This document shows positions 15,843 to 35,440 of a stretch of DNA of 60,773 nt, piece by piece. Under the pieces are notes generated by a model. It was not told the origin of the DNA. It did no database searches and saw nothing but the letters and a program-made list of their open reading frames with translations. The first letter of the stretch is position 1. The number at the start of each line of letters is the position of its first letter. The translations under genes were made by a program, and so were the position numbers. This DNA comes from Streptacidiphilus neutrinimicus (lineage in GTDB: Bacteria; Actinomycetota; Actinomycetes; Streptomycetales; Streptomycetaceae), in the NCBI RefSeq assembly GCF_000787815.1, contig NZ_BBPO01000001.1, forward strand, positions 51,110 to 111,882, written 5' to 3'.

Positions 15843-17018
15843 ATGACGGAATACATCGAGAACCCAGCGCTGTGGGCTCTTGTCGTGCTCCTGCTCATCG
15901 TGATCGCCGTCGTCGTCCGCCAGCGCAAGGCGGCCATGGCGTTGAGGCAGGAGATAGCGGGGCTCAGGGAGTACTACTCCGACCTGGAGCACCACTACGT
16001 GCAGTCCGTCGCTGCGGCCCAGGAGCAGGCCGAGGAAGCGACGAAGACCGTGCTGAAGTCGGCCATGCGCACCCTGCAGGGTCTGGCCGCCGAGCAGCAG
16101 CTGATCCTCTCCCGGCTGCAGACCAAGCACGGTGAGTCGGTCATCCTCCAGGACCTGCTGGAGATCGACCACACCAATTCCCAGTTCGGCCGCCGCGCCC
16201 AGTCCATCGCGGTGCTCTGCGACGGCTGGCTCGGCCGCCACCGCGACAACGCCTCGGTCTACGACGTGGTCCGCAGCGCGCAGGGGCGCGTCCGGCACTT
16301 CCGGCGTGTGGAGATCCTCTCCCAGGTGGACTTCGGCATCTCCAGCCGCGCCGTTGAGCCGGTTGCGCTGGCGCTGGCCGAACTCCTCGACAACGCCACC
16401 AGCTACTCCAGCCCGGACACGGTCGTCGAGATCAACATCCGCGCCGTCCCCAAGGGTGTGGCGATCGTCGTGGACGACGCCGGTGTCGGCATGAACGACG
16501 AGGAGCGGGCCCGCGCGGAGCGGCTGCTGAGCAGCGATCGCGTCAAGAGCGTTGCGGGGCTGGGCAATCCGCCGCAGTTCGGCCTCGCCGTCATCGGCGT
16601 GCTGAGTGAGCGATTCGGCTTCGAGGTGTCGGTGGACTCCAGTTCACCCTATGGCGGCGTGCGGGCGGTGGTCCTGCTGCCGCACGAGTTGCTGACGTCC
16701 ATGCCCGAGAAGAAGGCACCGGCTCCTCCCATGACGCGCTCCTCCGTGCCACCGCCCCAGCCGAACGGGCCCGAGCCCGTGCCGGCCTCCCCGACGACCA
16801 CCGACGGACTGCCGCTGAGAAGGCGCAAGCGTCCGATGGCGATCGTGCCGGGCTCCGCGCCGACCCCGATCGCCTCGGCCCGGTCCGGCGCCGAGACCGC
16901 GGCGATCATGGGAGCGTTCCAGCGGGGCACCCGGTCCGGCCGGGCCGCCCGCGGCGACGACGGGGACCAGACGATCAGCACACGTGGGTCAAGCAGTGAA
17001 GGGCATGAGTTCTCGTGA
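15843..17018 (+). CDS. cvnA: Conservon sensor-kinase-like protein CvnA
   Basis: 391 residues. One N-terminal membrane helix (about 8-26), a coiled-coil segment (28-75), then a dimerisation-like helix pair and a histidine-kinase-type ATPase domain with N-box ALAELLDNATSYS and G1-like VDDAGVGM. The C-terminal 110 residues are Pro/Ser-rich and disordered. In conservons, which pair such a kinase-like protein with a roadblock protein and a small GTPase in a membrane complex, this is the first gene. The canonical phospho-acceptor His box is not obvious; LEIDHTNSQFGRR holds the only candidate. Start ATG at 15843; the stop overlaps the next start as GTGA. Confidence 0.9.
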   Translation: MTEYIENPALWALVVLLLIVIAVVVRQRKAAMALRQEIAGLREYYSDLEHHYVQSVAAAQEQAEEATKTVLKSAMRTLQGLAAEQQLILSRLQTKHGESVILQDLLEIDHTNSQFGRRAQSIAVLCDGWLGRHRDNASVYDVVRSAQGRVRHFRRVEILSQVDFGISSRAVEPVALALAELLDNATSYSSPDTVVEINIRAVPKGVAIVVDDAGVGMNDEERARAERLLSSDRVKSVAGLGNPPQFGLAVIGVLSERFGFEVSVDSSSPYGGVRAVVLLPHELLTSMPEKKAPAPPMTRSSVPPPQPNGPEPVPASPTTTDGLPLRRRKRPMAIVPGSAPTPIASARSGAETAAIMGAFQRGTRSGRAARGDDGDQTISTRGSSSEGHEFS

Positions 17019-17416
17019 ACGACGATCTGTCATGGATGCTCGACAGCGCCCTGGAGATTCCCGGGGCCCTGCACGCGGTCCTGATCTCGGCCGACGGGCT
17101 CCTCATGGCCCGTACCAAGGACTTCGACAAGGACGACGCCGACCGCGTCGCCGCCGCGATGAGCGGCGTGCAGTCGTTGAGCCGGTCGCTCGGCTTCTTC
17201 TGCGAGGACAGCAGCGGCCTGTGGCGCCAGACGCTGGTCGAGTTCGACGGCGGCTGGGTCTTCCTGATCTCCGCCGGTGAGGGCGCCTACCTCGGCGTCT
17301 CCGCCGCGCCGGACGTGGACATGCAGAACATCACTTTCCGGATGCAGCAGTTGGTCGGCCAGTTGGGCAAGGTACTGGTCGCGCCACCGCGCGAGAACCT
17401 CGGAGTGCGCTCATGA
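17015..17416 (+). CDS. cvnB: Conservon roadblock/LC7 protein CvnB
   Basis: 133 residues of roadblock/LC7 fold, starting MNDDLSWMLDSALEIPGAL. Such proteins act as GTPase-activating or scaffolding partners of MglA-like small GTPases. Typical features are ALHAVLISADGLLMARTKDF and the central DRVAAAMSGVQSLSRSLG helix. The GTG at 17015 overlaps the cvnA stop by four bases and its own stop overlaps cvnC likewise, so the subunits are translationally coupled. In conservons CvnB is thought to regulate the nucleotide state of CvnD. Confidence 0.93.
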   Translation: MNDDLSWMLDSALEIPGALHAVLISADGLLMARTKDFDKDDADRVAAAMSGVQSLSRSLGFFCEDSSGLWRQTLVEFDGGWVFLISAGEGAYLGVSAAPDVDMQNITFRMQQLVGQLGKVLVAPPRENLGVRS

Positions 17417-17790
17417 ACGGGCCCGACGACTTCGAGCTCGACGCCACGGAGTTAGTGCGTCCTTACGTCATCACCAAGGGACGCCGGCTGCCGGACGACG
17501 ACCAGCTCTCGCTGATCACCCTCGTGACGGCCGCACCCGAGCAGGTGCAGCGCCCCCTGCGGCTCTCGCCGGAGGAGCAACGGCTGCTGGACCTCTGCTC
17601 CGCGGGCTACCTCTCGGTGGCCGAGATCGCGGGGCACACCCGGCTGCCGCTGGGCGTGGTGCGGATCATGCTGGCCGGTCTCACCGAGGCCGGCTACCTG
17701 ATCACCCGTCCGCCGGTGGCCCGCGCCCGTCTTGCCGACAAGGAGCTCCTTGAGGAGGTGCTCAGTGGTCTCCGGGCCAAGTTTGGGTGA
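17413..17790 (+). CDS. cvnC: Conservon DUF742 protein CvnC
   Basis: 125 residues of the DUF742 family. Signature LVRPYVITKGRR near 15-26, then a winged-helix-like C-terminal part (SVAEIAGHTRLPLGVVRIMLAGL) ending in a basic helix. The biochemical role is unknown; in the characterised conservon complexes it bridges the kinase-like protein and the GTPase. ATG at 17413 overlaps the cvnB stop by four bases; its 3' end overlaps the GTPase start by 26 bases, where GAGGAGG inside this gene supplies the next ribosome-binding site. Confidence 0.92.
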   Translation: MNGPDDFELDATELVRPYVITKGRRLPDDDQLSLITLVTAAPEQVQRPLRLSPEEQRLLDLCSAGYLSVAEIAGHTRLPLGVVRIMLAGLTEAGYLITRPPVARARLADKELLEEVLSGLRAKFG

Positions 17791-18376
17791 ACGACCGAGC
17801 CTGCGGTCGCGGGACTACGTCGCCGGCGGCGCCACGCAGACCGCCGTCAAGATCCTGGTCGTGGGTCACTTCGCCGTGGGCAAGACCACGTTGATCGGCT
17901 CGATCTCCGAGATCGAGCCGTTGTCGACCGAGGAGACGATGACGCGGGCGGCACAGGACGTGGACGACCTGAAGGGGGTCAGGGGCAAGACCACCACCAC
18001 CGTCGCCATGGACTTCGGCCGGCTCACCATCAGCGACCGCGTCGTGCTCTACCTGTTCGGCACGCCCGGACAGGTGCGCTTCGTGCAGATGTGGGAGGAC
18101 ATGGCCAGAGGCGCCCTCGGCGCGCTGGTCCTCGTCGACCCGGAGCGGCTCGCCGACTCCTTCGCCGTGATCGACCTGATCGAGCAGTACGGGCTCGACT
18201 ACGCGATCGCGGTCAACAACTTCGACGGCAACCCCGTGCGTGCCGAGGCCTCGCTGCGGGAGGCCCTCGACCTGCTCGAAGACACTCCGGTCGTCACCTG
18301 CGACGCGCGCGACGAGAAGTCGTCGGCGGCGGCGCTGACCACGCTCGTCAGCTACCTGCTGGCCCGCGTCGGCTAG
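17765..18376 (+). CDS. cvnD: Conservon small GTPase CvnD
   Basis: 203 residues, Ras/MglA-like GTPase. The P-loop GHFAVGKTT (34-42), the switch II region FGTPGQVRFVQMW and a base-recognition motif VNNFD in place of NKxD are as in other conservon GTPases. The start is set at GTG 17765, six bases after a strong GAGGAGG, rather than the upstream ATG at 17732, which has none. It ends the operon: a perfect-stem hairpin follows 22 bp later. By conservon precedent it cycles between GTP and GDP under CvnB and controls development or antibiotic production. The P450 usually encoded next is absent here and appears 3.3 kb away. Confidence 0.92.
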   Translation: MVSGPSLGERPSLRSRDYVAGGATQTAVKILVVGHFAVGKTTLIGSISEIEPLSTEETMTRAAQDVDDLKGVRGKTTTTVAMDFGRLTISDRVVLYLFGTPGQVRFVQMWEDMARGALGALVLVDPERLADSFAVIDLIEQYGLDYAIAVNNFDGNPVRAEASLREALDLLEDTPVVTCDARDEKSSAAALTTLVSYLLARVG

Positions 18377-23151: not shown

Positions 23152-23886
23152 ATGTCGCGCGTGGAGAGCGACGGGGACCGGAACGGGACCTCGGGCGTGC
23201 GGGTGGTCGTCGTCGACGACCACCCGCTGTTCCGGGAGGGGCTGCGCGCCGCCTTGGAGAGCACCGACGACGTGCGGGTGGTCGCCGAGGCCGAGACGGC
23301 GGCGGCCGCGCTGGAGGCGGTGGGGGCCCAGCGGCCCGATGTGGTCGTGATGGACCTGTCGCTGCCGGACGCCTCCGGGATCGAGGCCACCAGACGCCTG
23401 GGCCAACTGCACCCCACCGTCCCGGTGCTGATGCTGACCACCTCGGACGACGACGGCAGCCTGCTCGGCGCACTCCAGGCGGGCGCGCGCGGCTACCTGG
23501 TCAAGGGCGCGGGCCGGGACGAGGTGCTGCACGCGGTGCGGACGGTGGCGCACGGCGGCGCGGTGTTCAGTGCGGACGTCGCCACGCGGATCTCCGCCCT
23601 GCTCACCGGCGGCGTCCGCCGGGAGGCCGAGCAGCTCTTCCCGGGGCTGACCTCGCGTGAGATCGAGGTGCTCGACCTGGTCGCCCGGGGGCTGGACAAT
23701 CGCCGCATCGCCCGTGAGCTCTACCTGGCCGAGAAGACGGTGCGCAATCACATCTCGCACATCTTCGACAAGTTGCACGTCGCCACCCGGACCGAGGCCG
23801 CCGCGCGGGCCCGCGACGCCGGTCTCGGCGAGCCGCCGCGCCCGGCGGGACAGCAGGCGCCCGGCCCGTCGGGCGCCGCGAGGTGA
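23152..23886 (+). CDS. NarL/FixJ-family response regulator
   Basis: 244 residues. Receiver domain (16-135) with acidic pair VDDHPLFREGL, phospho-acceptor Asp68 in VVVMDLSLPD, switch Thr in LMLTTSDD and Lys in GYLVKGA. LuxR-type helix-turn-helix near 165-230 (LTSREIEVLDLVARGLDNRRI, then AEKTVRNHISHIF). ATG at 23152 is preferred; a GTG follows nine bases later. It lies about 100 bp before a sensor kinase of the matching HisKA_3 type on the same strand, so the two should form a pair. Targets are unknown; the small Cys/His protein and the copper oxidase operon downstream are the nearest candidates. Confidence 0.92.
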   Translation: MSRVESDGDRNGTSGVRVVVVDDHPLFREGLRAALESTDDVRVVAEAETAAAALEAVGAQRPDVVVMDLSLPDASGIEATRRLGQLHPTVPVLMLTTSDDDGSLLGALQAGARGYLVKGAGRDEVLHAVRTVAHGGAVFSADVATRISALLTGGVRREAEQLFPGLTSREIEVLDLVARGLDNRRIARELYLAEKTVRNHISHIFDKLHVATRTEAAARARDAGLGEPPRPAGQQAPGPSGAAR

Positions 23887-23989: not shown

Positions 23990-26173
23990 ATGGCGGAGCT
24001 GAGCGGGACGCCGCGCACGGCGTGGGCCGGGAGCCGACAGATGGGCGCCGCCTACGCGGCCTGCGGCGTGGCGCTCGGCGCGTGCTTCGTCTGGCTGGCG
24101 CTGGCCTACACCGGCCTGGGCGGATCGCGCCTGGCCTCGGTGGACTTCGGCATCTTCGGCTCGCACATCCTCTTCATGCTGGCCTGCGCCCTCGCGGGGA
24201 CGTTCAGCCTCGCCCACCCCTCGGGAGGAACGGTCGGCCGGCTGCTCCTGCTGACCAGCACCGGGGAGCTGGTCGGTCAGGCCATCGGCATCGCGGCGGC
24301 GGCCGTGGGGTGCGGCATCGTGGTGCGCACCGGCGTCGTGCTGGTGGGCTACGCCGGTGACTGCCTGTCCATCTTCCTCCTCTACAGCCTGCCGTTCTGG
24401 CTCCCTGACGGGAGGCTGCCCGGACGGCGCTGGGGGCGGGCGCTGGTTGTCGGGATCGCCGTCTGGACGCTCTGCGAGGTCTATCTCGACACCGGGACCC
24501 AGAGCGACTGGTACGGGATGGCCAACCCGCTTGCCACCGGCCGACCCTGGGTCACCGTCAAGAGCGCCCTGTCGTCCGTCGTCGGCGCGGCCCTGGTCTA
24601 CGTGCCGGTCAGCCTCTCCGCGTTGGGCTTCCTGGTGCTCGCCGTGAGGGCGTGGCGGTGGCGGGGGCGTCGTCGTCGGGGGCCGGTGCGCAGTTCGGGC
24701 CGGTCGCCCCTGCTGCCCGGCGCGCTGCTGCTGGTGGTGGTCCCGTTCCTGCTGCTGACCGTGGGGAGTTACGTGGACTACTTCTTCCCGCTGCCGAGCG
24801 CCGCGACCCTGGTGCTCTTCTACAGTCCGCTGGTGCTGCTGCCGTTGGGCCTCGTCTTCTTCTTCGCACGGGACCGCTCCGCGCACCTCGACCGGGCCAC
24901 CCGCCGGGTGCTGGCCGTGCTCGTCACGCTGGCCGTGCTGGTGGTGGGGTACTTCGCGCTCGCGATCGGGCTGTCCGACGTGCTGCCGGGCACCCGCACC
25001 CCCGGCGCGCTGGTGCTGGCCGTGGGGTCGCTGGCGATCGGCCTGCTGCTGCGGGCGACCGGCGGCTGGGCGGTGCGGGTGGTGGACCGCTCCTACTACG
25101 GCGACCGGGCCCGGCCCTACCACGTGGTGCGCGAGCTGGCGGGGCGGTTGAGCCGGACGGTGACACCGGGGGAGGCGCCGCGGCTGCTGTGCGAGAGCGT
25201 CGTCACCACGCTGCGGTTCCCGGCGGCGCGGGTCCTGGTGCACACCAGCGGCGGCAGCCGGGAGACCGCGACGCTGGGGGAGACCGCCGCCGCCCGCTTC
25301 TGGCACCGCTTCGAGCTGGTCTTCGAGGGCGAGGAGGTCGGAGCCCTGGAGGTCGCCGCCCGTGTGGGCGAGCCGGAGCTGGACCAGCAGGACCACGACG
25401 TGCTGCGGCTGCTCGCCGACCAGGCCGCGCCCGCGATCGCCTCGCTGGGCCTGTACCAGGAGCTCCAGGCCAGTCGGGAGCGGATCGTGCTCGCCCGCGA
25501 GGAGGCGCGGCGGCGGCTCCGCCGAGACCTGCACGACGGCCTGGCGCCGGCGCTGTCCGGCCTGCGGCTCCAGGTCGACACGGCCCGCGCGGGCCTTGCC
25601 GGGGACGACCCGGCCGGCGGGCGGCTCGGCGGCGTCTCCGAGGGGATCGCGGACGCCATCACCGAGCTGCGGCGGATCACCGCCGGGCTGACCCCGGCGG
25701 TGCTCGACCGGGACGGGCTGGGTCCGAGCCTGCGCGGCCTCGCGACCGGCCTCGGTGGCCGGAACCTGCTGATCGACGTCGAGCTGCGCCCGGACCCGCT
25801 GCCCGAGCTCCCGGCGGCCGTAGAGGTGGCGCTGTACCGGATCGCCTCCGAGGCCCTGCACAACGTGGTCCGGCACTCGGGCGCCCGCCGAGCGCGCCTC
25901 TGCCTGGGCGTCGCCGACGACGCGGTGCTGCTGGAGGTCAGCGACGACGGCCGCGGCCTGGACGGTCCGGCGCGCCAGGCCGCGGCCGGCGGTGTCCACG
26001 CGGGCGCTGTCCACGCAGGCGGTGTCCGGCCGGGCGGTGTCGGGCTGCGGTCGATGTCCGAGCGGGCGCAGGAGCTCGGGGGCACGCTGTGCGTGCAGGG
26101 CGGTCCGGACGGCGTCGAGGGGTGCGCGGGCGTGGTCGTACGCGCCGAGATCCCGGTCCGCCCGGGTGGGTAG
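23990..26173 (+). CDS. Membrane sensor histidine kinase (HisKA_3 type)
   Basis: About 728 residues. The N-terminal 370 are hydrophobic with eight or so membrane helices, then a GAF-like segment, a HisKA_3 box RRRLRRDLHDGLAPALSGL with phospho-acceptor His near 515, and a C-terminal ATPase domain (VALYRIASEALHNVVRHSG, then DDGRGLDG). Near the end short repeats encode GGVHAGAVHAGGVRPGGVGL, an expanded Gly loop before the last strand. GTG at 23987 or ATG at 23990 may be used. Its partner is the response regulator just upstream. The many helices suggest sensing within the membrane or of a lipophilic ligand. Confidence 0.9.
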   Translation: MAELSGTPRTAWAGSRQMGAAYAACGVALGACFVWLALAYTGLGGSRLASVDFGIFGSHILFMLACALAGTFSLAHPSGGTVGRLLLLTSTGELVGQAIGIAAAAVGCGIVVRTGVVLVGYAGDCLSIFLLYSLPFWLPDGRLPGRRWGRALVVGIAVWTLCEVYLDTGTQSDWYGMANPLATGRPWVTVKSALSSVVGAALVYVPVSLSALGFLVLAVRAWRWRGRRRRGPVRSSGRSPLLPGALLLVVVPFLLLTVGSYVDYFFPLPSAATLVLFYSPLVLLPLGLVFFFARDRSAHLDRATRRVLAVLVTLAVLVVGYFALAIGLSDVLPGTRTPGALVLAVGSLAIGLLLRATGGWAVRVVDRSYYGDRARPYHVVRELAGRLSRTVTPGEAPRLLCESVVTTLRFPAARVLVHTSGGSRETATLGETAAARFWHRFELVFEGEEVGALEVAARVGEPELDQQDHDVLRLLADQAAPAIASLGLYQELQASRERIVLAREEARRRLRRDLHDGLAPALSGLRLQVDTARAGLAGDDPAGGRLGGVSEGIADAITELRRITAGLTPAVLDRDGLGPSLRGLATGLGGRNLLIDVELRPDPLPELPAAVEVALYRIASEALHNVVRHSGARRARLCLGVADDAVLLEVSDDGRGLDGPARQAAAGGVHAGAVHAGGVRPGGVGLRSMSERAQELGGTLCVQGGPDGVEGCAGVVVRAEIPVRPGG

Positions 26174-26315
26174 CGGTCGCGCACCGGTCGCCTCCGCTGG
26201 TCATTGAAGTTGAAGGTGTGACGGATTCACGCCCGGGTGCCCGACCGGGACCTGCCCGGGACTCTGGACTCATGTGCCCGGGACGCCCGGCGACGCACAT
26301 TCGATAGCGAAAGCC

Positions 26316-26338
26316 GCCCCTGCCTCCCGGGCAGGGGC
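26316..26338 (+). terminator. Stem-loop between the kinase and the small Cys/His protein
   Basis: A 9-bp stem GCCCCTGCC/GGCAGGGGC ends 20 bases before the next start. It may stop kinase transcripts or sit in the leader of the small gene. Confidence 0.45.
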
Positions 26339-26358
26339 ACGAGTGACAGGAGCACCCG

Positions 26359-26619
26359 ATGACCGCGAATCCCTCACCCACCCCTCGCGGCGGCCTCGCG
26401 ACCGAGTGCAAGCACCCGGGCTGGTGCCAGCCGGAGGCCGAGCAGCCGCCGTCGGCGGCGGCGGCGCTGACCGCACGGGCGATGTCGACCGCACGGGGGG
26501 AGCAGTCCGCGCCGCAGGAGACCCCGGTGCCGGAGGACCCCCCGGACACGTGCCTGCACCCCGGGCAGTGCCCGCCCCTGCCGCACCCGCCGCAGGAGGC
26601 GCACCAGCCGGACGACTGA
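26359..26619 (+). CDS. Small protein with two CxHPGxC motifs
   Basis: 86 residues. ATG at 26359 follows AGGAG by eight bases. The only cysteines lie in two copies of one motif, CKHPGWC (17-23) and CLHPGQC (65-71), separated by an Ala/Pro/Glu-rich spacer. The rest is Pro/Gln-rich with no membrane helix or signal peptide. Cys-x-His-Pro-Gly-x-Cys duplicated in a small soluble protein looks like a metal site, Cu(I) or Zn(II), possibly shared by both motifs in one molecule or across a dimer. It faces, tail to tail, an operon ending in a multicopper oxidase. I do not recognise a named family. Confidence 0.7.
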   Translation: MTANPSPTPRGGLATECKHPGWCQPEAEQPPSAAAALTARAMSTARGEQSAPQETPVPEDPPDTCLHPGQCPPLPHPPQEAHQPDD

Positions 26620-26643
26620 ACCAGCGCGGACGCCTCGCGAAAG

Positions 26644-26685
26644 GGCCTCGCCGGTGGATCCGCCCAGGGATCCACCGGCGAGGCC
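26644..26685. terminator. Bidirectional terminator, 18-bp perfect stem
   Basis: GGCCTCGCCGGTGGATCC and its exact complement flank a 6-nt loop between the small Cys/His gene (plus) and the multicopper oxidase (minus). Confidence 0.9.
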
Positions 26686-26730
26686 GTTCGCGTGCACGGG
26701 AGCGGGCGCGGGCGCCCGGCCGGGCCTGCG

Positions 26731-28572
26731 TCACATGCCGCCCATGCCGCCCATCCCGCCACCGCCCATGCCGCCACCGCCCATGCCGCCCATCCCGCCG
26801 ACGTCCATGACGGCCCCGGGCATCACCGCGAACTCCCGCATCATCCCGGCGTCCTCGTGCTCCAGGATGTGGCAGTGGTACATGTACCGTCCGGACGCGC
26901 CGCGGAACTGGCCGGCCACGGTGACCATCGTGCCCGGCGGCACCCGCATCACGTCCTTCCAGCCCGTCAGGGACGGGTCGATCGGCAGCGAGTCCAGATG
27001 GGCGACCGGGGCGCCGGGCGCGGTGCCGCCCTGGGCCTGGACGAACCTGGCGGTGTCGTAGCCGTCGAGGGACAGCGGCTGGAAGCGGGTCAGGTGGATG
27101 TGGATCGGGTGCAGGATCCCGCTCAGGTTGAGGATCCGCCACACCTCCCACCCGTCCTGGCGGGCCCGCCAGTTGAGCTGGTCGTCGAAGTGGCGGGCGA
27201 GGCGCTGGTAGGTGGTGGTCACCCCGTCCTGGTCGGTGACCTGGATGATGCCGTCCCTGACGCCGCCGGTCGCCGCCGCCGGGGCCGGGACCTCGCCCAG
27301 CTCCCACAGCCCCAGCGTGCCGTCGGCGTCGGCGGCGAGCGCCAGCATCCGGTGCATGTGGTCGGGCGGGAGCCGGTCGTGGGTGAGCCGGCAGTAGGTG
27401 GGGGAGAGAGTCGGCGGCAGCCGGAACGTGTCCGTCAGCGGGATGTCCGCGACGCGGAACTGCATCACGTCCGGCTCCGGCAGGCGGGCGGCGGGCAGCG
27501 GGTCGCCGGGCTTGACCCCCGGCGGCAGCGGGTCGCCGCGGAAGGGCGCCTGCGCGGAGTTGACCAGCCGCAGCGACTGCCCTCGGAAGGCGCCGAAGTC
27601 GACCAGCACGTCCGCTCGTTCGGCCGGGGCCAGGGTCAGCCCGTCGGCGGGGACGGGCAGCGGCGCGCCGAGCAGCCCGCTGTCCGTGCCGATGAGCCAC
27701 GCGCAGCCGGTGACCACCGCGCCGCTCTCGTCCAGCAGGTGCAGCCGGTAGGTGCGCGAGTTGGACGCGTTCAGCACCCGGAACCGGTACCAGCCGGGCC
27801 GGACCTCCAGGTGGGGCCAGATCGTGCCGTTGACCAGCGTGTAGGGCCCGACGAACGGCAGCGTGCCGGTGGTCTTGTGCAGCAGCCGCCCGGTGAAGCG
27901 CCCCGACGCGTCGGTCTCCAGGTTGCGGTCGCAGACGATCAGCGGGATTTCGCGGTCGCCGCCCGGCAGCCCGAGGGCCTCCTCCTCGTCGTCCCGCAGC
28001 AGGTACATCCCGACCAGCCCGGCGTATACGTTGAGCCGGGTGATGTTCATGGCGTGGTCGTGGTACCAGAGCGTCATCGCGGGCTGGTCGTTCGGGTACT
28101 CGGAGAGCTGCGCGTCGCCGCGCAGCACGGCGTTCTCCATCCACCCGTCGTTGTTGCCCCCGGTCACCGCGCCGTGCAGGTGCGTCACCTGCCAGGCGGG
28201 CAGCGCGGCCACGCCCCTGACGGGCTGGGCCAGGCCGATGCCCGGATCGTTCATCGCGAGGGAGGGGTTGCCAGGCGCGTCCGCGAGGAACGCGGCCACG
28301 GCCGGGTAGGGCGTGGCCGTGCCGTTCTCCCAGGTCACCCGGGTGCGCTGGCCGCGGTGCACGTCGAGGACCGGGCCGGGGAAGTGCCCGCCGTAGGTCC
28401 ACAGCGGGGTCGGCGGCAGTTGCGCGTGCAGCCGCAGGCTCACGCCCTCGGTCCGGAGGGTGAACCGCGCCGGCGAGTCGGCGCGGTCCGCGCGCAGCCG
28501 TGGCGGGATCCGCAGCGGGTCGGTGAACTTGGTGAGGGCGGTCGTGGTCGTGGGTGTCTCGGTCGCTGTCAT
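26731..28572 (-). CDS. Multicopper oxidase (CotA / phenoxazinone-synthase type) with Met-rich tail
   Basis: 613 residues. All four copper motifs are present: THLHGA (His131, His133), WYHDHAM (His171, His173), LHPIHIH near 485, and YHCHILEHEDAGMM (565-578) with the type-1 Cys567 and axial Met. Three cupredoxin domains; no signal peptide or Tat motif, so it should be cytoplasmic like CotA or phenoxazinone synthase. The last 25 residues are only Gly and Met plus a leading DV (GGMGGMGGGGMGG repeats), probably a copper-loading tail. It is the last gene of a five-gene operon; its ATG at 28572 overlaps the MFS stop. By family it couples oxidation of phenols, aminophenols or metal ions to reduction of oxygen to water. 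Confidence 0.92.
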   Translation of the reverse strand: MTATETPTTTTALTKFTDPLRIPPRLRADRADSPARFTLRTEGVSLRLHAQLPPTPLWTYGGHFPGPVLDVHRGQRTRVTWENGTATPYPAVAAFLADAPGNPSLAMNDPGIGLAQPVRGVAALPAWQVTHLHGAVTGGNNDGWMENAVLRGDAQLSEYPNDQPAMTLWYHDHAMNITRLNVYAGLVGMYLLRDDEEEALGLPGGDREIPLIVCDRNLETDASGRFTGRLLHKTTGTLPFVGPYTLVNGTIWPHLEVRPGWYRFRVLNASNSRTYRLHLLDESGAVVTGCAWLIGTDSGLLGAPLPVPADGLTLAPAERADVLVDFGAFRGQSLRLVNSAQAPFRGDPLPPGVKPGDPLPAARLPEPDVMQFRVADIPLTDTFRLPPTLSPTYCRLTHDRLPPDHMHRMLALAADADGTLGLWELGEVPAPAAATGGVRDGIIQVTDQDGVTTTYQRLARHFDDQLNWRARQDGWEVWRILNLSGILHPIHIHLTRFQPLSLDGYDTARFVQAQGGTAPGAPVAHLDSLPIDPSLTGWKDVMRVPPGTMVTVAGQFRGASGRYMYHCHILEHEDAGMMREFAVMPGAVMDVGGMGGMGGGGMGGGGMGGMGGM

Positions 28573-30125
28573 GACGCCTCCTCGGAACCGGCGACGGTGG
28601 TCGTCCGCGGCCGCAGTGCGGCGGCGGCTGCCTGGGGGAGCAGGGGCAGCGCGGCGAACGCCGCGCCGAGCAGGCACACGCCGGACCACCCGGCGCGGGC
28701 CCAGACGACGGCGGAGAGCGCGGAGCCCGTCGCGCCGCCGGCGAAGTAGCAGGTCATGTAGACGGTGGTCACCCGGCTGTGGGTGCCTGCGGGCAGCAGG
28801 GCGTAGATCTCCTGCTGGTTGGCGGTCTGCACCCCGCGCAGCCCCAGATCCAGCAGCACGGCTCCGACACCCAGCAGCACCAGGCTCCCCCGGCCCAGGG
28901 TGAGCGGCAGGAACGCCACGACCATCAGCCCGTTGAAACCGAAGCGCGCGGGGCGCACATGCCCGTGGTCGCACCACCGCCCGGCGGGCTGCGCGAGCAG
29001 CACGCCGGCGATCCCGGTCAGCCCGAACAGCCCGATGGCGGCTTCGCCGAACCGGAAGGGCGACCGCGCGAGCAGGAACGCCGTGGGCGTCCAGAACACG
29101 GAGAACGCCGCGAACACGGCGAAGCCGCTCATGCAGTAGCCGCTCAGCCGCACCCTCCAGGGGCACCGAGCGTTCCGCCCGGCGGCGGAGCCGCCAGTCT
29201 GTCGAGCCGTCTGTTTCGCGCCCGGAGTTGGTTGTACCCGCCAGGGGCGCGGGGCTCTACCGATGTGCGGCTCCGCCGCCGGGCGCGAGAACCGCCCGGG
29301 GAGGACGGCCCTGCTCGTTCGGCGCTCCAGGTACCAGGGATGGGCGTCCCCCCGCCTGAAGGCCGGATGGGTGTACCCGCGTCTGAAGGCCGGGTGGGTG
29401 TACCCGCGTCTGAAGGCCGGGTGGGTGTACCCGCGTCTGAAGGCCGGGTGGGTGTACCCGCGTCTGAAGGCCGGGTGGGGGTCCCCCCGGCCGGAGGCTG
29501 GGGGAATGTCGCGCCCCGCGGCGGAGTCGTGCGTCGGAGCGCCCTCGCGCTCCTGGGGAGGTGCAAGCTCCCCGTCGTTCAGAAGCGCCCGTACCAGGGC
29601 GGCGGCAGCCGCCAGCAGCACTGCCGCCGCCGCGTACACCGCGCGCCAGCCGCAGAGCGCGGCAAGTTGGCCGGAGACCACCCGGGCGAGCAGGATGCCG
29701 GCCGTCAGGCCGCCCATCACGGTGCCGACCGCGCGGCCGCGTCGTTCGGGGCCGGCCGTCGAGGCCGTGCGGGCGACCAGGACCTGGGCCGCGCTGCCGG
29801 TGAGGCCCAGCAGCACGACCGCGACCGCCAGGACCGGCAGGGCCGGCGCCGTCGCGGCCAGGACCGCCGCCGGCACGGCGAACCCCAGCAGCGCCGTGGC
29901 CAGCCGGCCCCGCGACAGCCGGTCGCCCAGCGGGACGATGAGCAGCAGCCCCGCCGCGTAACCGAGCTGACCCGCCGACACCACCGCCGCCGCGCTCGCA
30001 CGGTGAGCGTGGAAGCTCGCGGCGAGCGCGGGCAGCAGCGGCTGGGCGTAGTAGATCCCGGCCACGGCGACGCCGCAGGCGAACGCCGTCACCGCAGGCT
30101 CTCCGCGCCGCAGGGCCGGGGTCAT
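28569..30125 (-). CDS. MFS exporter with a repeat-derived insertion between its two halves
   Basis: 518 residues against about 400 for the family. Residues 1-190 form the first six helices (AGIYYAQPLLPALAASF; motif A-like PLGDRLSRGRL) and about 326-518 the last six. Between them are some 130 residues of foreign character: five 9-residue repeats (YTHPAFRRG) from a 27-bp minisatellite, and an Arg/Pro-rich segment encoded by a dispersed Streptomyces-type repeat. The frame stays open throughout, so the protein may still fold with a long cytoplasmic loop. The start overlaps the amidohydrolase stop and the stop overlaps the oxidase start. Likely exports the operon's product. Confidence 0.85.
   Translation of the reverse strand: MTPALRRGEPAVTAFACGVAVAGIYYAQPLLPALAASFHAHRASAAAVVSAGQLGYAAGLLLIVPLGDRLSRGRLATALLGFAVPAAVLAATAPALPVLAVAVVLLGLTGSAAQVLVARTASTAGPERRGRAVGTVMGGLTAGILLARVVSGQLAALCGWRAVYAAAAVLLAAAAALVRALLNDGELAPPQEREGAPTHDSAAGRDIPPASGRGDPHPAFRRGYTHPAFRRGYTHPAFRRGYTHPAFRRGYTHPAFRRGDAHPWYLERRTSRAVLPGRFSRPAAEPHIGRAPRPWRVQPTPGAKQTARQTGGSAAGRNARCPWRVRLSGYCMSGFAVFAAFSVFWTPTAFLLARSPFRFGEAAIGLFGLTGIAGVLLAQPAGRWCDHGHVRPARFGFNGLMVVAFLPLTLGRGSLVLLGVGAVLLDLGLRGVQTANQQEIYALLPAGTHSRVTTVYMTCYFAGGATGSALSAVVWARAGWSGVCLLGAAFAALPLLPQAAAAALRPRTTTVAGSEEAS
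29242..29279. repeat. Dispersed repeat copy inside the MFS gene
   Basis: This 38-bp stretch, reversed, matches 36 of 38 bases at 48508-48545. It contains the GCGGCGGAGCCGC arm. A second GGCGGCGGAGCC arm in inverted orientation lies at about 29180-29192, so the whole 29150-29290 stretch looks like one inserted palindromic element. Confidence 0.8.
29356..29490. repeat. Five tandem 27-bp repeats in the MFS gene
   Basis: Copies start at 29356, 29383, 29410, 29437 and 29464 with CTGAAGGCCGG. The middle three are identical and the last ends GGGGGTCCCCCCGG. The unit is nine codons, so copy number can change without breaking the reading frame. Confidence 0.95.
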
Positions 30126-31558
30126 CGGGGTTCCACGTCCGAGGGGCGGCGTGCGTCCAGCCACCGGCCGTCCGCCGCGCCGAACGCGGCGTCGGCGCGG
30201 TCGTCGGACAGCCGGTAGACCGTCTCGCCGCGCCGGGCCGTGTGCAGCACCCGGCCGGTCATCGTCCAGCCCTCGTAGGCGGACCAGCCGCACTTGGAGC
30301 GGATCGTGCCCGGTTCGAGCATCCACCGCTCGTCCGCGTCGAAGAGCACGAAGTCCGCGTCGAGCCCGGCACACAGCCGGCCCTTGCGCTCGTCGAGACC
30401 GAACAGTTCGGCCGGGCGCTCGGCGAGCATCCGCACCAAGCACGAGAGTTGGGCGTCCGGCGAGTCCTGGGGGCCGCGTCGGCGCAGGCCGGTGTGCACG
30501 GCAGGGAGCATTTCCTGCACGCCGGGCAGCCCGGGCGGAGCCTCCGCCGGGACGCGGAGCTTCTCCGCCCGCGTGTGCGGAGCGTGGTCGCTGCCCAGCG
30601 TCGCGGCGTGGCCGCCCAGGACCGCCTGCCAGAGCCGGTCCTGGTCCGGTGCGTCCCGCAGCGCGGGACTGAGGCGCGCCCGCGCGCCGACCCGGCACGT
30701 CTCCGCTGCGGTGAAGGAGAGATGATGCGGCGTCACCTCGAAGGTCACCGGAAGGCCCGCGTAGGCGGCGGCCGTCAGCAGGTCGGCCTCCTCGGCCGTG
30801 GAGGCGTGCAGCACGTGCACGGACGTGCCGTGGCGGCGGACCAGCTCCACCACCCGGGCCACCGCGACGATCGCGCCGCTGCGCGGACGGTGCCGCTCGT
30901 ACTCGGCGTAGCCGGACGGCTCGCCGCGCCACCCGTCCAGCAGCCCGAACACGCCGTCGTCCTCGGCGTGCAGCAGCAGTCGCAGGCCGGACTCGGCGGC
31001 GGTGCGGAAGATCTTCTCCAGCTGCACCGGGTCGCGCACGACGTGCGGGGCCGTGTGGTGCCCGGCGAGGAAGACCTTGACGCTGGTCGCCTCGCGCGGG
31101 CCCACCTCGCGCAACGGGGAGGGGTCCTCGCCCGCCACGCCGAGGTGGAAGCGGTAGTCCACCAGGGAGGCGCCCTCGATCAGCTCGGCCTTGCGGTGCG
31201 CCTCCTCGCCGGTGCGCAGCGGCGGGACCGTGTTGGGCATGTCGATCACCGTGGTGATCCCGCCCGCGACGGCGGCCCGGCTCGCGTGCGCCCAGTCCTC
31301 CTTGTGCGTCAGCCCCGGGGCGCGGAAGTGCACATGGGAGTCGATCAGGCCGGGGAGCAGATGGCGTCCGCCGCCGTCGAGCGTCCGCCGCGCGGGCGGG
31401 CGCTCGTCCGGCCCCAGCAGGCAGGCGATCCGGCCGCCCGACACGGCCAGCCCTCCGGTCGCCACCCCGTCCCCGCTCACCAGCCGCACGCCGGTGACGA
31501 CCAGGTCGTAGGGCTGTTCACGCCGCGGTGCGCTCGTTGTCTCACTCATCGCCGACAC
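30122..31558 (-). CDS. Dihydroorotase/allantoinase-like cyclic amidohydrolase
   Basis: 478 residues, amidohydrolase superfamily. Metal ligands in order: DSHVHFRAPG (HxH), a carboxylated-Lys candidate in TSVKVFLAG, LLHAED, EVTPHHLSF and GSDHAPHTRAEK (Asp). This is the dihydroorotase, allantoinase and hydantoinase arrangement, in which a cyclic amide or ureide is opened or closed. Pyrimidine synthesis is unlikely: there is no pyr operon here, and it sits in a secondary operon between a PrpF-like isomerase and an exporter. The start is either the codon at 31558 or ATG 31549, both overlapping the upstream gene. Probable role: ring formation or opening of the pathway intermediate. Confidence 0.85.
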   Translation of the reverse strand: MSAMSETTSAPRREQPYDLVVTGVRLVSGDGVATGGLAVSGGRIACLLGPDERPPARRTLDGGGRHLLPGLIDSHVHFRAPGLTHKEDWAHASRAAVAGGITTVIDMPNTVPPLRTGEEAHRKAELIEGASLVDYRFHLGVAGEDPSPLREVGPREATSVKVFLAGHHTAPHVVRDPVQLEKIFRTAAESGLRLLLHAEDDGVFGLLDGWRGEPSGYAEYERHRPRSGAIVAVARVVELVRRHGTSVHVLHASTAEEADLLTAAAYAGLPVTFEVTPHHLSFTAAETCRVGARARLSPALRDAPDQDRLWQAVLGGHAATLGSDHAPHTRAEKLRVPAEAPPGLPGVQEMLPAVHTGLRRRGPQDSPDAQLSCLVRMLAERPAELFGLDERKGRLCAGLDADFVLFDADERWMLEPGTIRSKCGWSAYEGWTMTGRVLHTARRGETVYRLSDDRADAAFGAADGRWLDARRPSDVEPR

Positions 31559-32576
31559 CCACCGCGACCGCGCCCAGCGCCTGCGTCTCCTTGCCGCCGA
31601 CGCTCACCCACAGCAGCTCGTCGTCCTGGGTGTCGCCGGACGCGGCGTAGGAGGCCACGACCTGCCGTGCGGGCGTGTCGATGACGAGCCGTCCGGGGAC
31701 GGCCGACGCCCCGGCCAGCAGCCGGTGAGGGATCGTGCCGCGCAGGGCCGAGGCCGCCGCGAGGCAGACCGCGCCCGTCAGGGCAAGCTCGGGATGCCAG
31801 CCGCCGACGGTCAGCGCGCGCACGGCCAGGTGCCCGGGGGCGACCGGGACCACGGCCGCGACCTTCGGGAACGCTCCGTTCGGCGGCCAGCCGAGCCGGG
31901 CGGCCTGCCGTCGGCGCATCCGTTCCAGCGTCGCGTACAACTCGGGCTGCTCACCCCGGAAGAGTGCCTCCCGGTCGCGCACGCCCAGCCGTGCGCCGTC
32001 GACGAACAGGTAGGGGTTGGCCATCCGCACCACCCGGCCGCCGTCGCGCAGCAGCGTGCCGAGCCGGGTGCCGGGCGGGGCGACGAAGTGCGCGGTGAAG
32101 ACCGTGTGCCGGGGCGAGGCGTGGTCGACCTGGCAGACCACCTGGTCGCCGTTGTTGAGCACCCGCGCGCGGACCCGGTCCCCGGCGCGCAGCGCCGGCA
32201 GTCGGCCCGCCTGCGCGGCGGCCGTGACGGCGGCGAGCAGCGAGTGGCCGCAGGTGCCGTTCAGGTCGAAGTGGTCCGGCGCGTCCGGCATCGCCTGGAC
32301 GAAGCGGTAGTCCACGTCGAACAGCGGGTGCGCGGAGGGCGCGATCAGCGCCCACTTGAGCACCTCGCCCCCGCCGCCGGCGTCCGGCAGGTCCGGCAGC
32401 CGGCGGCGGATCCGGGTCAGCGCGGCGACCAGGGCCTCGCTGTCGCGGGGGAGGGCGTCGGCGTCCAGGACCAGGGTGGGTCCGGGGGCTCCGATCGCGC
32501 GGGCGAGGGCGGCGAAGCCGACGTCGGCGGTGGGAGCGGTGAGGACGGTGGACGCGGTCAGGTCCGTGGCGCTCAT
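31542..32576 (-). CDS. PrpF-family isomerase (diaminopimelate-epimerase fold)
   Basis: 344 residues. Two similar halves of epimerase fold; family signatures are FDLNGTCGHSLLAAV, with a probable catalytic Cys, and GGWHPELALTGAVCLAAAS in the second half. PrpF relatives shift double bonds of unsaturated di- and tricarboxylates (aconitate, methylitaconate, 4-oxalomesaconate). There is no methylcitrate or gallate pathway nearby, so a substrate made in this operon is more likely. ATG at 32576 overlaps the asparagine synthase stop by four bases, and its end overlaps the amidohydrolase start by 17. Confidence 0.8.
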   Translation of the reverse strand: MSATDLTASTVLTAPTADVGFAALARAIGAPGPTLVLDADALPRDSEALVAALTRIRRRLPDLPDAGGGGEVLKWALIAPSAHPLFDVDYRFVQAMPDAPDHFDLNGTCGHSLLAAVTAAAQAGRLPALRAGDRVRARVLNNGDQVVCQVDHASPRHTVFTAHFVAPPGTRLGTLLRDGGRVVRMANPYLFVDGARLGVRDREALFRGEQPELYATLERMRRRQAARLGWPPNGAFPKVAAVVPVAPGHLAVRALTVGGWHPELALTGAVCLAAASALRGTIPHRLLAGASAVPGRLVIDTPARQVVASYAASGDTQDDELLWVSVGGKETQALGAVAVGVGDE

Positions 32577-34403
32577 GACGCCACCTCCAGCAGTTCTCGT
32601 GCCTCGGCCGGGCGGGAGGCGGCGCGGCGCACCGCGAACTCCTCACGCCACAGCTCGAACATCAGCAGCGACCAGGTCGCCAGGGCCAGGCAGTCGGCCG
32701 GCCGGGTCCGCTGCGCCCGCAGCAGCCGCTCGACGGCCGTCGGGTCCAGCTGTCCGCCGGTGCGCAGCCGGGCGGGGGAGAGCACCTCGCGCGTGTACGC
32801 CCACAGCGGCGTCCCGGGCGCGAGCATCGCAGTGATCGGCAGGGTGAAGGGTTGCTTGGGCCGCTCCAGCACGCTGCGCGGCAGCAGTCCGCGCGCGGCC
32901 GCGTACAGCGCCACCTTGCCGCGTCCGCCCTCCGGCGACAGCCGGTGGCGCTGCGGCAGGGCGCGGGCGAGCTCGCGCACCGACCGCTGGCAGAAGGGCA
33001 GCCGGACTTCGACGGCGTGCGCCATGCTCAGGTGGTCGACCCGCCGCAGGTGGTAAGCGGGCAGCCGGACCTGGGTCTCGAAGTCGGTGAGGACGTCGAG
33101 CCGTGACCGGTGCGCGGCCTCCTGGCGCAGCCCTTCCGTGATCGCGTCCGAGGCGCTGCCCCGGTCGGAGACGAACGCCCGGTAGTCGGCGCTGTAGAGT
33201 CGCGGCCGGGCCTCGGCCGGGATCGCCGCGAGCGCGTCCACGTACGCGGGCAGCCAGGTCCCGCGTGTGGTGACGGCGGCGTGGATCCGGCCGTACCCTG
33301 CGAACACCTCGTCGGCCGCGTCGCCGGTCAGCGCCACCTTGAACCCGGCCTGGTGCACGGCCTCGAAGAGGCCGTAGGTGCTCAGGGCGATCGGGTCCGC
33401 GTTGGGCTGGCCCAGGTGCCAGGCCACGGCGGGGAGCAGCTCGGGGAAGCGGGCCACGTCCAGCTCGACCTGGTGGTGCACCGTTCCGGCCCGCTCCGCC
33501 ACCTCACGGGCGAAGTGCCTTTCGTCGTGCGGCCATTCACCGCGGTAGGCGATGTTGAAGGAGTGCACGCCGTGCGCCTGGCGCGTCGTCGGCCATCAGC
33601 GCGGTGACCAGGCTGGAGTCCAGCCCGCCGCTGGTGATCGCGCACACCTTGGCGTCCGCGACCGTCAGCCGCCGTACCTCCTCCGCCAGGGCCTCCCGCA
33701 CCTGTTCACCCGGCTCCCCTCCGGTGACGGCCGGGCGCTCGGGGGCGGGCCTGCGGTGCAGCCGCAGCCCGCGCGAGCGCGAGCAGACGGCGGTGGTCCC
33801 GGGCGGCAGCACCTGCACGCCCTCGACGAGGGTGTGCTCGCCGAACGGCGTCTTGGTCGCCAGGTAGCTGTCCAGCCCCGGCTCCCACAGCGTCGGCCGC
33901 TCCCGTCCCAGGGCCAGCAGCGCGGGCAGCTCGGAGGCGAAGTGCAGCCTGCTGCCGTCCCAGCGGTAGTAGATCGGCTTCATTCCCGCCTCGTCGGTGG
34001 CCAGGACGAGCGTCGGCTCGGCGCGCAGGTCGATCAGCGCCACGGCGAACATCCCGTCGAGCCGTTCGGCGAACGCCCTGCCGTGCTCCTGGTAGAGGGC
34101 GGGCAGCACCGCGCCGTCGCAGCGGTCCGCGAACCGGTGGCCGCGCGCCTCGAGCTGAGCACGCAGCCCGGTGTGGTTGTAGATCTCGCCGTTGAAGACG
34201 GCCTTGACCCGTCCGCCGTCGCCCTCGTAGGGCTGCCGCCCGCCGACCGGGTCAGTGATCGCGAGCCGGTTGCTGCCCAGCGCCCATCCGGCGCCGTGGG
34301 CGAGCCGGGCCTCGTCGGGCCCGCCGTGCCGCTGCAGCGCGCCGGCCGCGCGCATGTCGTGGGGTGAGAGATCGGCGTCGAAGTGCCCGTGGATTCTGCA
34401 CAT
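32573..34403 (-). pseudogene. asnB: Asparagine synthase (glutamine-hydrolysing), split by one frameshift
   Basis: First gene of the operon. The N-terminal half starts ATG 34403 with MCRIHGHFD, the nucleophile Cys2 of a class II glutaminase, followed by VFNGEIYNHTGLR and the AMP-forming loop ITSGGLDSSLVTALMADD. At about 33570-33590 the frame changes: the first frame ends at 33537, while the other continues as HGVHSFNIAYRGEWPHDERHF, LTGDAADEVFAGYGR and on to a normal C-terminus at 32573. Both halves are well conserved, so the lesion is recent, a sequencing error, or a recoding site; no slippery heptamer is evident. Joined, the protein would be about 609 residues, normal for AsnB. It would amidate a carboxylate using glutamine. 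Confidence 0.8.
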
Positions 34404-34452
34404 GATCGCTGGTGCCTTCTGCTCGGGGTGGATCGATGCCTCCACGTTCGGC

Positions 34453-34489
34453 AGCCCGTTGTCCCGCCCGCCTGAGCCCGTTGTCCCGC
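34453..34489. promoter_or_regulatory. Two 15-bp direct repeats before the five-gene operon
   Basis: AGCCCGTTGTCCCGC occurs at 34453-34467 and again at 34475-34489, a 22-bp period (two helical turns), 50-86 bp upstream of the asparagine synthase start. Exact repeats on one helix face are what a dimeric or tandem-binding activator would use. The regulator is unknown. Confidence 0.5.
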
Positions 34490-34589
34490 ACCGGCCCCGC
34501 ACCCGTCCCGGGCTCCGAACCGCTGTGCGGACCGGGCCACGGACCGGAGTGCGGGCGGGTGGTGCGCCGGGGGTCGGGGCTGTGTCACC

Positions 34590-34652
34590 ATGTGCCGCGT
34601 GGTCGAGGTTGACAATTTGTTGAAGCCCGGTCGTCCGCGGGGCGCGCGATGA
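34590..34652 (+). CDS. Possible 20-codon ORF coupled to the aquaporin gene
   Basis: ATG at 34590 reads MCRVVEVDNLLKPGRPRGAR and stops in TGA 34650-34652, overlapping the channel ATG. It has no strong ribosome-binding site. A TTGACA hexamer and the quasi-palindrome TTGACAATTTGTTGAA (34609-34624) lie inside it, so this may instead be promoter or MarR-operator sequence. Confidence 0.25.
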   Translation: MCRVVEVDNLLKPGRPRGAR

Positions 34653-35440
34653 CCGGGCCGACGCCGGAGCCGATGCTCCACCCCTTGGCGCGGCGTCTGG
34701 GCGGCGAGTTCGTCGGGACGCTCGCGCTGGTGGCCGTCGTGGTGGGCTCCGGCATCCAGGCGCAGCGGCTCACCCCGGACACCGGTGAGCAGTTGCTGGC
34801 CAACGCGCTGGTCAGCGCACTGGGGCTGGGGGTCCTGATCGCGCTGCTCGGGCCGGTGTCCGGCGCGCATCTGAACCCCGTGGTCACGCTGGCGGCGTGG
34901 TGGACGGGACGCCGCGACGGGCGCGGGCCACGTCCCGCCGAGGTGGCCGCGTACACGGCCGCGCAGGTCGCCGGGGCGATCGGTGGCGCGCTGCTCGCGG
35001 ACGGGATGTTCGGCGGACCGGTGGCGCGGTTCTCCCGGCAGGGCCACGACGGCGTCCACCTCTGGCTCGGCGAGGTCGTGGCCACCGCCGGGCTGGTGCT
35101 GCTGGTCGTCGGGCTGGGCCGGACCGGGCGGGAGGCGGCCGCGCCGGTGCTGGTCGCCGCCTATATCGGTGCGGCGATCTGGTTCACCTCGTCGGGCAGC
35201 TTCGCCAATCCCGCCGCGACGGTCGGACGTGCCTTCACCGACAGCTTCACCGGTATCGCGCCCCGCTCCGTGCTTCCCTTCGTTTTCGCCCAACTCGTCG
35301 GCGCCGCCGTGGGGCTGGCGCTCGCGCCGATGCTGTTCGGCCGCACCGCCGTGGCCCGGTGGAGGCGAAGCGGGGTCGGCGTCGACGCCGACGCGTGCCC
35401 TCCGGGGCCGCGACCGGCTCCGGACGGTCGGGCGGTGTGA
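34649..35440 (+). CDS. MIP family aquaporin/glycerol-facilitator-like channel
   Basis: 263 residues with six membrane helices and two half-helix loops. The first loop reads HLNPVVTL (Asn76-Pro-Val in place of Asn-Pro-Ala) and the second FANPAATVGR (Asn187-Pro-Ala), with the selectivity-filter Arg following. The altered first motif occurs in some bacterial channels and may shift selectivity from water to small solutes such as glycerol or metalloid acids. The 28-residue C-terminal tail is hydrophilic. ATG at 34649 has no obvious ribosome-binding site. It diverges from the five-gene operon and converges on a MarR gene, a possible regulator. Confidence 0.9.
   Translation: MTGPTPEPMLHPLARRLGGEFVGTLALVAVVVGSGIQAQRLTPDTGEQLLANALVSALGLGVLIALLGPVSGAHLNPVVTLAAWWTGRRDGRGPRPAEVAAYTAAQVAGAIGGALLADGMFGGPVARFSRQGHDGVHLWLGEVVATAGLVLLVVGLGRTGREAAAPVLVAAYIGAAIWFTSSGSFANPAATVGRAFTDSFTGIAPRSVLPFVFAQLVGAAVGLALAPMLFGRTAVARWRRSGVGVDADACPPGPRPAPDGRAV

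Follow-up and report, generated by a model that had tools for sequence, protein, structure and literature searches.

Five overlapping genes on the minus strand of a 60,773-nucleotide stretch of the Streptacidiphilus neutrinimicus genome (contig NZ_BBPO01000001.1, positions 51,110 to 111,882; hereafter the window) contain what we tentatively read as a version, specific to one clade, of a cassette that is widespread in actinobacteria and may make a small carboxylated cyclic imide. The genes run from position 34403 to 26731 and encode, in this order, an asparagine synthase (AsnB), a PrpF-like isomerase (PrpF), a dihydroorotase-like cyclic amidohydrolase (DHO), a transporter of the major facilitator superfamily (MFS) and a PhsA-like multicopper oxidase (MCO). 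The genome that hosts them measures 8.4 Mb and is assembled in 184 contigs. A first-pass annotation of the same DNA had proposed these five genes as one undescribed small-molecule system. The operon is genuine: open reading frames (ORFs) and family profile scans returned the same gene identities and coordinates, all on the minus strand. Overall, the earlier observation is partly confirmed and its interpretation partly supported.

Conservation of the core across actinomycetes

Matches to PrpF were detected in 9 of the 14 genomes of the genus and in 93 of the 394 genomes of the family at an E-value of 0.001, with 48 of the 394 scoring above 100 bits. We assembled 40 regions from the family and genus, covering part of these 48 genomes, and 80 named loci, which were the best 80 of 156 relatives. 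After 21 of the 40 regions were dropped as twins of named loci, 100 loci were retained, including the window (80 + 19 + window). PrpF was the seed of every locus and some loci come from the same genome, so that the counts say nothing on how frequent AsnB or DHO are without PrpF. Genes were predicted with a simple gene caller, which returned no PrpF in locus L101 and no AsnB in L125, and contig ends truncate several loci.

PrpF was called in 99 of the 100 loci, AsnB in 98, DHO in 92 and an acyl-CoA-dehydrogenase-like protein (ACAD) in 82. All three of AsnB, PrpF and DHO are present in 92 loci, of which 81 have ACAD as well. In each of the 98 loci where both AsnB and PrpF were called, the two are direct neighbors on one strand with AsnB upstream, and 80 of these 98 pairs overlap by 4 bases. 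This adjacency is more than chance. The usual gene order is AsnB-PrpF-ACAD-DHO, and the conserved unit is asnB-prpF-(ACAD)-DHO, with records in Streptomyces, Streptacidiphilus, Actinacidiphila, Lentzea, Actinokineospora, Amycolatopsis, Streptosporangium and others. The search for conserved synteny that the first-pass annotation had suggested does not refute its claim, and the synteny of the core across loci supports its view of a conserved, probably biosynthetic small-molecule set. What finds no support is the notion that the five genes form a single pathway that cannot be divided: it is the core that is widespread, a close MCO joins it in one clade only among the 100 loci, the MFS gene is a remnant in S. 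jiangxiensis, and another genome of the genus carries MCO and a neighboring histidine kinase without the core.

When AsnB and PrpF were placed in a midpoint-rooted tree, with only the 3' part of the window's AsnB, the window falls in a clade of 10 loci (the window, eight other records of the genus and one of Actinacidiphila) with local support of 1.00. All 10 loci carry a close MCO and none a called ACAD; a close MCO adjoins the core in no other of the 100 loci.

To describe the company that the core keeps, we counted the genes present within approximately 10 kb of it on either strand. One representative of each context cluster was profiled, and the acyl carrier protein (ACP) cluster was assigned by eye only. 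CysK-like proteins are found in 55 of the 100 loci and CysE-like proteins in 36; 35 loci have the two. A cupin protein of approximately 265 amino acids occurs in 44 loci, an ATP-grasp ligase-like protein in 36, a TauD-like protein in 26, an HpaI-like aldolase in 25 and a ketosynthase (KS) with an ACP in 5. A flavin hydroxylase, whose best NCBIfam match is the urate hydroxylase HpxO, below cut-off, is present in 36 loci. In six loci the core is accompanied by a PsuG/IndA-type C-glycosidase and a HAD phosphatase. A compact arrangement lies on plasmid NZ_CP108116.1 of Streptomyces sp. NBC_00212 (L166) and combines C-glycosidase, HAD, MFS, cupins, acyltransferase, AsnB, PrpF, ACAD, DHO and flavin reductase, which makes it a candidate C-nucleoside pathway. 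In the existing annotation of this plasmid the C-glycosidase is named pseudouridine-5'-phosphate glycosidase and the HAD protein hydrolase. Plasmid pSMg1-3 of Streptomyces sp. Mg1 carries TauD, aldolase, CysK-like, AsnB, PrpF, ACAD and DHO genes. Within this context, the C-glycosidase with its phosphatase, the CysK- and CysE-like proteins and the flavin hydroxylase suggest a nucleobase-like or nucleophilic ring.

Enzymes of the operon

A profile of 20 PrpF sequences matches the structures of YbhH, 3-methylitaconate isomerase, oxalomesaconate isomerase and PrpF, and the solved relatives are either named as itaconate-, oxalomesaconate- or methylaconitate-type acid isomerases or unassigned. K74 and C109 are invariant in the 20 aligned sequences and align with the Lys and Cys of 3-methylitaconate isomerase; these family residues are catalytic in PrpF and 4-oxalomesaconate tautomerase. 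Chemistry of this type acts on unsaturated di- or tricarboxylates. The protein shares the superfamily, by profile, and the aligned Lys and Cys with PrpF, oxalomesaconate tautomerase and 3-methylitaconate isomerase, but it differs from them in scoring far below the NCBIfam equivalog cut-offs (63.5 bits versus 440 for OMA tautomerase; a second score of 22.7 versus 440.55) and in having AsnB directly upstream.

DHO passes a single cut-off among the best 25 of the 48 families listed, that of NCBIfam pyrC_multi (283 bits versus 279.05). Its metal ligands H72, H74, K158, H194, H248 and D321 are present in 92 of 92 aligned homologues, and correspond to the HxH motif, carbamylated Lys, two His and Asp of binuclear amidohydrolases. 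Equally invariant (92 of 92) are R76, N106 and H325. In dihydroorotase, an Arg/Asn/His trio holds the substrate carboxylate. In a single alignment, the PyrC of the same genome has R/N/H at these three positions, and AllB has N/N/S, so that two of the three differ. The structural model (mean predicted local distance difference test score, pLDDT, of 84.3; 19 sequences) and a search of the PDB confirm the cyclic amidohydrolase fold, and separate dihydroorotase neither from allantoinase nor from hydantoinase.

We considered and rejected DHO as this genome's PyrC, allantoinase or hydantoinase, as each of these is found elsewhere and passes its own cut-off (PyrC 755 bits, cut-off 538; AllB 559, cut-off 358; hydantoinase 557, cut-off 393). 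DHO is distinct from all three. The possibility, raised by the first-pass annotation, that the genes have their closest homologues in housekeeping pathways was checked for the amidohydrolase alone, which proved to be a fourth paralogue; this result does not refute the claim either. Compared with PyrC of de novo pyrimidine synthesis, DHO is likewise an amidohydrolase with the same Arg/Asn/His trio, and ring closure between an amide nitrogen and a carboxylate would be chemistry common to both. The partners differ: the genome's PyrC lies on another contig with the genes for PyrR and aspartate carbamoyltransferase, whereas those of DHO are AsnB and PrpF.

The 5' ORF of asnB, with Pfam GATase_7 at 121.9 bits and NCBIfam asn_synth_AEB at 189 bits (profile positions 1-277), contains both the MCRIHG start and the SGGLDSS motif. 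In glutamine-hydrolyzing asparagine synthases the N-terminal Cys is the nucleophile and SGGLDSS is a characteristic motif. Enzymes of the AsnB type use ATP to form amides.

The closest solved relative of MCO is the phenoxazinone synthase 3gyr of the PDB (547 bits), and the four copper motifs HLHG, WYHDHA, HPxHxH and HCHxxEHED are all present. MCO is probably cytoplasmic, because no signal sequence is evident by eye. These likenesses to PhsA are offset by a score of 719.2 bits against the NCBIfam PhsA equivalog cut-off of 950, and by the fact that family scans found no enzyme of an o-aminophenol pathway among the other proteins of the operon. The same scans, which covered the operon's own proteins, agree with the first-pass annotation in finding no nonribosomal peptide synthetase (NRPS) or polyketide synthase.

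A proposed route to a cyclic imide

When the chemistries of PrpF, AsnB and DHO are combined, a carboxylated cyclic imide would be the simplest common answer. Judged from what is typical of the families, the isomerase would act on an unsaturated di- or tricarboxylate of the aconitate/itaconate type and move or flip its double bond, and AsnB would convert one carboxylate into an amide at the expense of glutamine nitrogen and ATP. DHO, acting in the manner of a dihydroorotase, would then close the amide nitrogen onto a second carboxylate, with a third carboxylate held by the Arg/Asn/His trio that it has in common with PyrC. In other loci, the ACAD-like flavoprotein may oxidize the ring or the amide. 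In Streptacidiphilus and Actinacidiphila, where ACAD is absent, the MFS transporter probably exports the compound, and MCO may oxidize the product or a phenol or aminophenol partner; that it oxidizes the pathway product is a guess. A uracil-like ring would fit this scheme, since the pseudouridine-phosphate glycosidase YeiN of Escherichia coli is described in PMC8724604 as cleaving its substrate into uracil and ribose 5-phosphate.

A more specific version of the route, which we regard as quite unlikely when all its parts are taken together, treats the cassette as a carba-analogue of pyrimidine biosynthesis. In it, AsnB would amidate aconitate, PrpF would set the geometry of the double bond, and DHO would close the monoamide to citrazinate (2,6-dihydroxyisonicotinate), a six-membered glutaconimide-carboxylate that can be seen as an orotate analogue with one ring N replaced by CH. 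Citrazinate is suggested by analogy, because its formation would be isosteric with the closure of carbamoylaspartate. ACAD might then act as a dihydroorotate dehydrogenase or ring oxidase, and the deaza-nucleobase might be joined to ribose by the PsuG-type C-glycosidase or to alanine by the CysK-type enzyme. In the Streptacidiphilus clade, the PhsA-like MCO might instead oxidize it to a pigment- or quinone-like product.

The finishing genes beside the core are so diverse, from C-glycosidase and cysteine synthase to ketosynthase and copper oxidase, that the core resembles a module reused to supply one small ring. Were this ring a uracil-like imide, a family of C-nucleoside and amino-acid clusters that lack an assignment would be accounted for, and there would be a handle for finding new antimetabolites. 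The clade of the window would be a small version to reconstitute, consisting of the three enzymes of the core plus a transporter and an oxidase.

Evidence against the route and alternative explanations

Several observations weigh against the cyclic imide. DHO passes no equivalog cut-off among the best 25 of the 48 families listed, the structure search places allantoinases and hydantoinases slightly above dihydroorotases, and the metal-bridging Lys of DHO and AllB is aligned with an Arg in the genome's PyrC. MCO, for its part, passes none of its four NCBIfam cut-offs. Since pyrC_multi is all that DHO passes and MCO passes nothing, similarity does not fix the specificity of either enzyme. ACAD lacks a conserved Glu (74 aligned rows) at the position that we take to be the usual acyl-CoA dehydrogenase Glu site, which makes its part in the route putative. 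The cupin protein that recurs near the core has no NCBIfam family match at an E-value of 1e-10. Moreover, 8 of the 100 loci have no called DHO. One of these (L116) ends just past PrpF and three (L101, L113 and L125) are ambiguous, but in L080-L083 other genes come after PrpF, and therefore DHO is not part of every version of the cassette. By their gene content, L080-L083 are a different pathway type: AsnB-PrpF, with neither DHO nor ACAD called, is followed by a gene of the short-chain-dehydrogenase cluster and by a methionyl-tRNA-synthetase-like protein (tRNA-synt_1g, in the L080 copy). Finally, one genome of the genus (G009) has MCO (62% identity) next to the histidine kinase (48%), and has neither a match to PrpF nor a close DHO (best 38%).

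This last arrangement indicates that MCO and the kinase are separable from the core, and that MCO may therefore serve something else. It agrees with a two-module explanation, which is possible although we judge it rather unlikely, in which AsnB-PrpF-DHO, perhaps with MFS, makes the compound and MCO with its two-component system is an independent oxidative or copper-related neighbor. Consistent with such a separation, MCO matches of at least 60% identity are present in all nine core-bearing genomes of the genus, in two of which they are in pieces, and in one of the five that lack the core, and the tail of MCO is rich in Gly and Met in the window and in several relatives. However, the MFS and MCO genes overlap by 4 bases in six of seven measured junctions, and the set stays together from Actinacidiphila to Streptacidiphilus, across a distance at which PrpF retains 62% identity. 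A distant MCO (28.6% identity) also lies 15 nucleotides upstream of AsnB in Actinosynnema (L109), which argues against independence; another (29.6%) is found kilobases from the core in L064. The Actinosynnema locus has, in addition, chorismate-binding/GATase and HpaB-like monooxygenase genes with the distant MCO by the core. In G009 (L164, C4:2376500-2396400), the genes preceding the regulator resemble, by eye, a cupin, a GMC-oxidoreductase and an alcohol dehydrogenase.

The state of asnB raises the question of whether the operon is functional in this strain. The first-pass annotation treated asnB as a single gene, but in the assembly it consists of two ORFs in different frames, so that the window has no intact two-domain frame, while asnB is a single open frame in all five near relatives compared. 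With asnB frameshifted, the route may be off in this strain. One could thus see the operon as a decaying remnant, inactive here and intact in relatives, with a broken asnB and an MFS gene enlarged by repeats, and the MFS remnant in S. jiangxiensis would be in line with this. We find this quite unlikely, as PrpF, DHO, MFS and MCO are all open frames and the draft assembly, with its 184 contigs, may contain an error. Furthermore, when asnB is compared with two relatives, most differences are at third codon positions (72 of 111 and 82 of 111), as expected under recent constraint. For this reason, either the inactivation is recent or the frameshift is an assembly error.

A catabolic role, in which MFS would import a hydantoin, imide or dihydropyrimidine, DHO would open the ring and PrpF would isomerize the resulting acid, is very improbable: the nearest solved relatives and folds of DHO do include hydrolases (allantoinases and hydantoinases) and the dihydroorotase and hydantoinase reactions are reversible, but AsnB-type enzymes spend ATP on making amides and the partners in other loci look biosynthetic (C-glycosidase, KS/ACP, CysE/CysK-like, ATP-grasp ligase), although no search was aimed at catabolic sets.

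Comparison with known systems

The presence of a PsuG/IndA-type C-glycosidase and a HAD phosphatase next to some relatives of the core recalls the C-nucleosides of the YeiN/PsuG type, showdomycin and minimycin. In the window, however, neither the C-glycosidase cluster nor the phosphatase cluster has a member within 8 genes of PrpF, and the rings of both compounds are NRPS-assembled according to the biosynthetic account in PMC8724604; on these grounds showdomycin and minimycin themselves were rejected as products. The hydroxamate warhead of actinonin and matlystatin offers another parallel, as an AsnB-like enzyme lies on the way to a succinamic-acid-type warhead. There, according to PMC5719088, the AsnB-like ActJ/MatC is accompanied by a putative N-oxygenase, CCR, EMC epimerase and ECM, and the words dihydroorotase, amidohydrolase and isomerase each have no occurrence in the main text of that paper. 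Our searches of an open-access library, which mostly does not cover subscription journals, found no description of the cassette, and AsnB-PrpF-(ACAD)-DHO is apparently undescribed.

Organization of the operon and neighboring genes

The coordinates of the operon and its flanking features are collected in Table 1. The first-pass annotation had reported overlaps of 4, 17, 4 and 4 bases at the four junctions. Those of 4 bases stand (AsnB/PrpF, DHO/MFS and MFS/MCO), whereas the one of 17 bases between PrpF and DHO depends on a GTG start at 31558; with the ATG at 31549 it shrinks to 8 bases. We infer that 8 bases are likelier, because five of ten PrpF-DHO junctions measured with the simple gene caller, the window's included, have an overlap of this length. 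At the other end, the hairpin likely marks the end of the operon (minimum free energy of the 61-nucleotide stretch -50.8 kcal/mol, z -7.9, none of 200 shuffles as good). No match to a sigma-70-type promoter was found in 26150-34700.

Table 1. Features of the operon and of its surroundings in the window
Feature	Position	Strand	Description
asnB, whole	34403-32573	-	1831 nt, not a multiple of 3
asnB, 5' part	33537-34403	-	Class II glutamine amidotransferase domain (MCRIHG start) and start of the synthetase domain with SGGLDSS
asnB, 3' part	32573-33568	-	Asparagine synthase domain, other frame; Pfam Asn_synthase 194.4 bits
PrpF-like isomerase	31542-32576	-	Aconitate/itaconate isomerase superfamily; Pfam PrpF 52.1 bits (cut-off 27)
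DHO, cyclic amidohydrolase	30122-31549	-	ATG start; GTG at 31558 possible; NCBIfam pyrC_multi
MFS transporter	28569-30125	-	Pfam MFS_1 98 bits; inserted repeat between two conserved halves
Dispersed repeat and 27-bp tandem array	29170-29566	.	In frame inside the MFS gene
MCO	26731-28572	-	PhsA type (o-aminophenol oxidase/phenoxazinone synthase); Gly/Met-rich tail
Hairpin, 18 bp	26644-26685	.	After the MCO stop; likely terminator
Histidine kinase (HisKA_3)	23990-26173	+	Convergent with the operon; its place beside MCO is conserved in the genus
LuxR-type response regulator	23152-23886	+	Likely kinase partner

The tandem array in the MFS gene comprises 5.4 units of 27 bp and lies between the parts that match relatives. 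The dispersed repeat has at least 51 further matches in the same genome (40 of 1527 candidates were scored). In the seven relatives examined, the stretch between the conserved halves varies in length and the frame is open across both halves in all seven; L051 (G013), whose genes come in pieces, was omitted from this check. Distant MFS homologues are located upstream of AsnB in L113 and approximately 8 kb away in L105 and L108.

MCO is probably under the control of the two-component system beside the operon, which perhaps regulates the other operon genes as well. Between the kinase and MCO, a small ORF of 86 amino acids (26359-26619, plus strand) has two CxHPGxC motifs and is possibly a metal-binding peptide. 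We set it aside, as it was found in just 2 of the 11 sequences scanned, namely the window and L044. Further away, at 15843-18376 on the plus strand, a sensor-like gene is followed by three small genes, one of them GTPase-like, in a set that presumably resembles an actinomycete conservon; its last gene has no NCBIfam match at an E-value of 1e-30.

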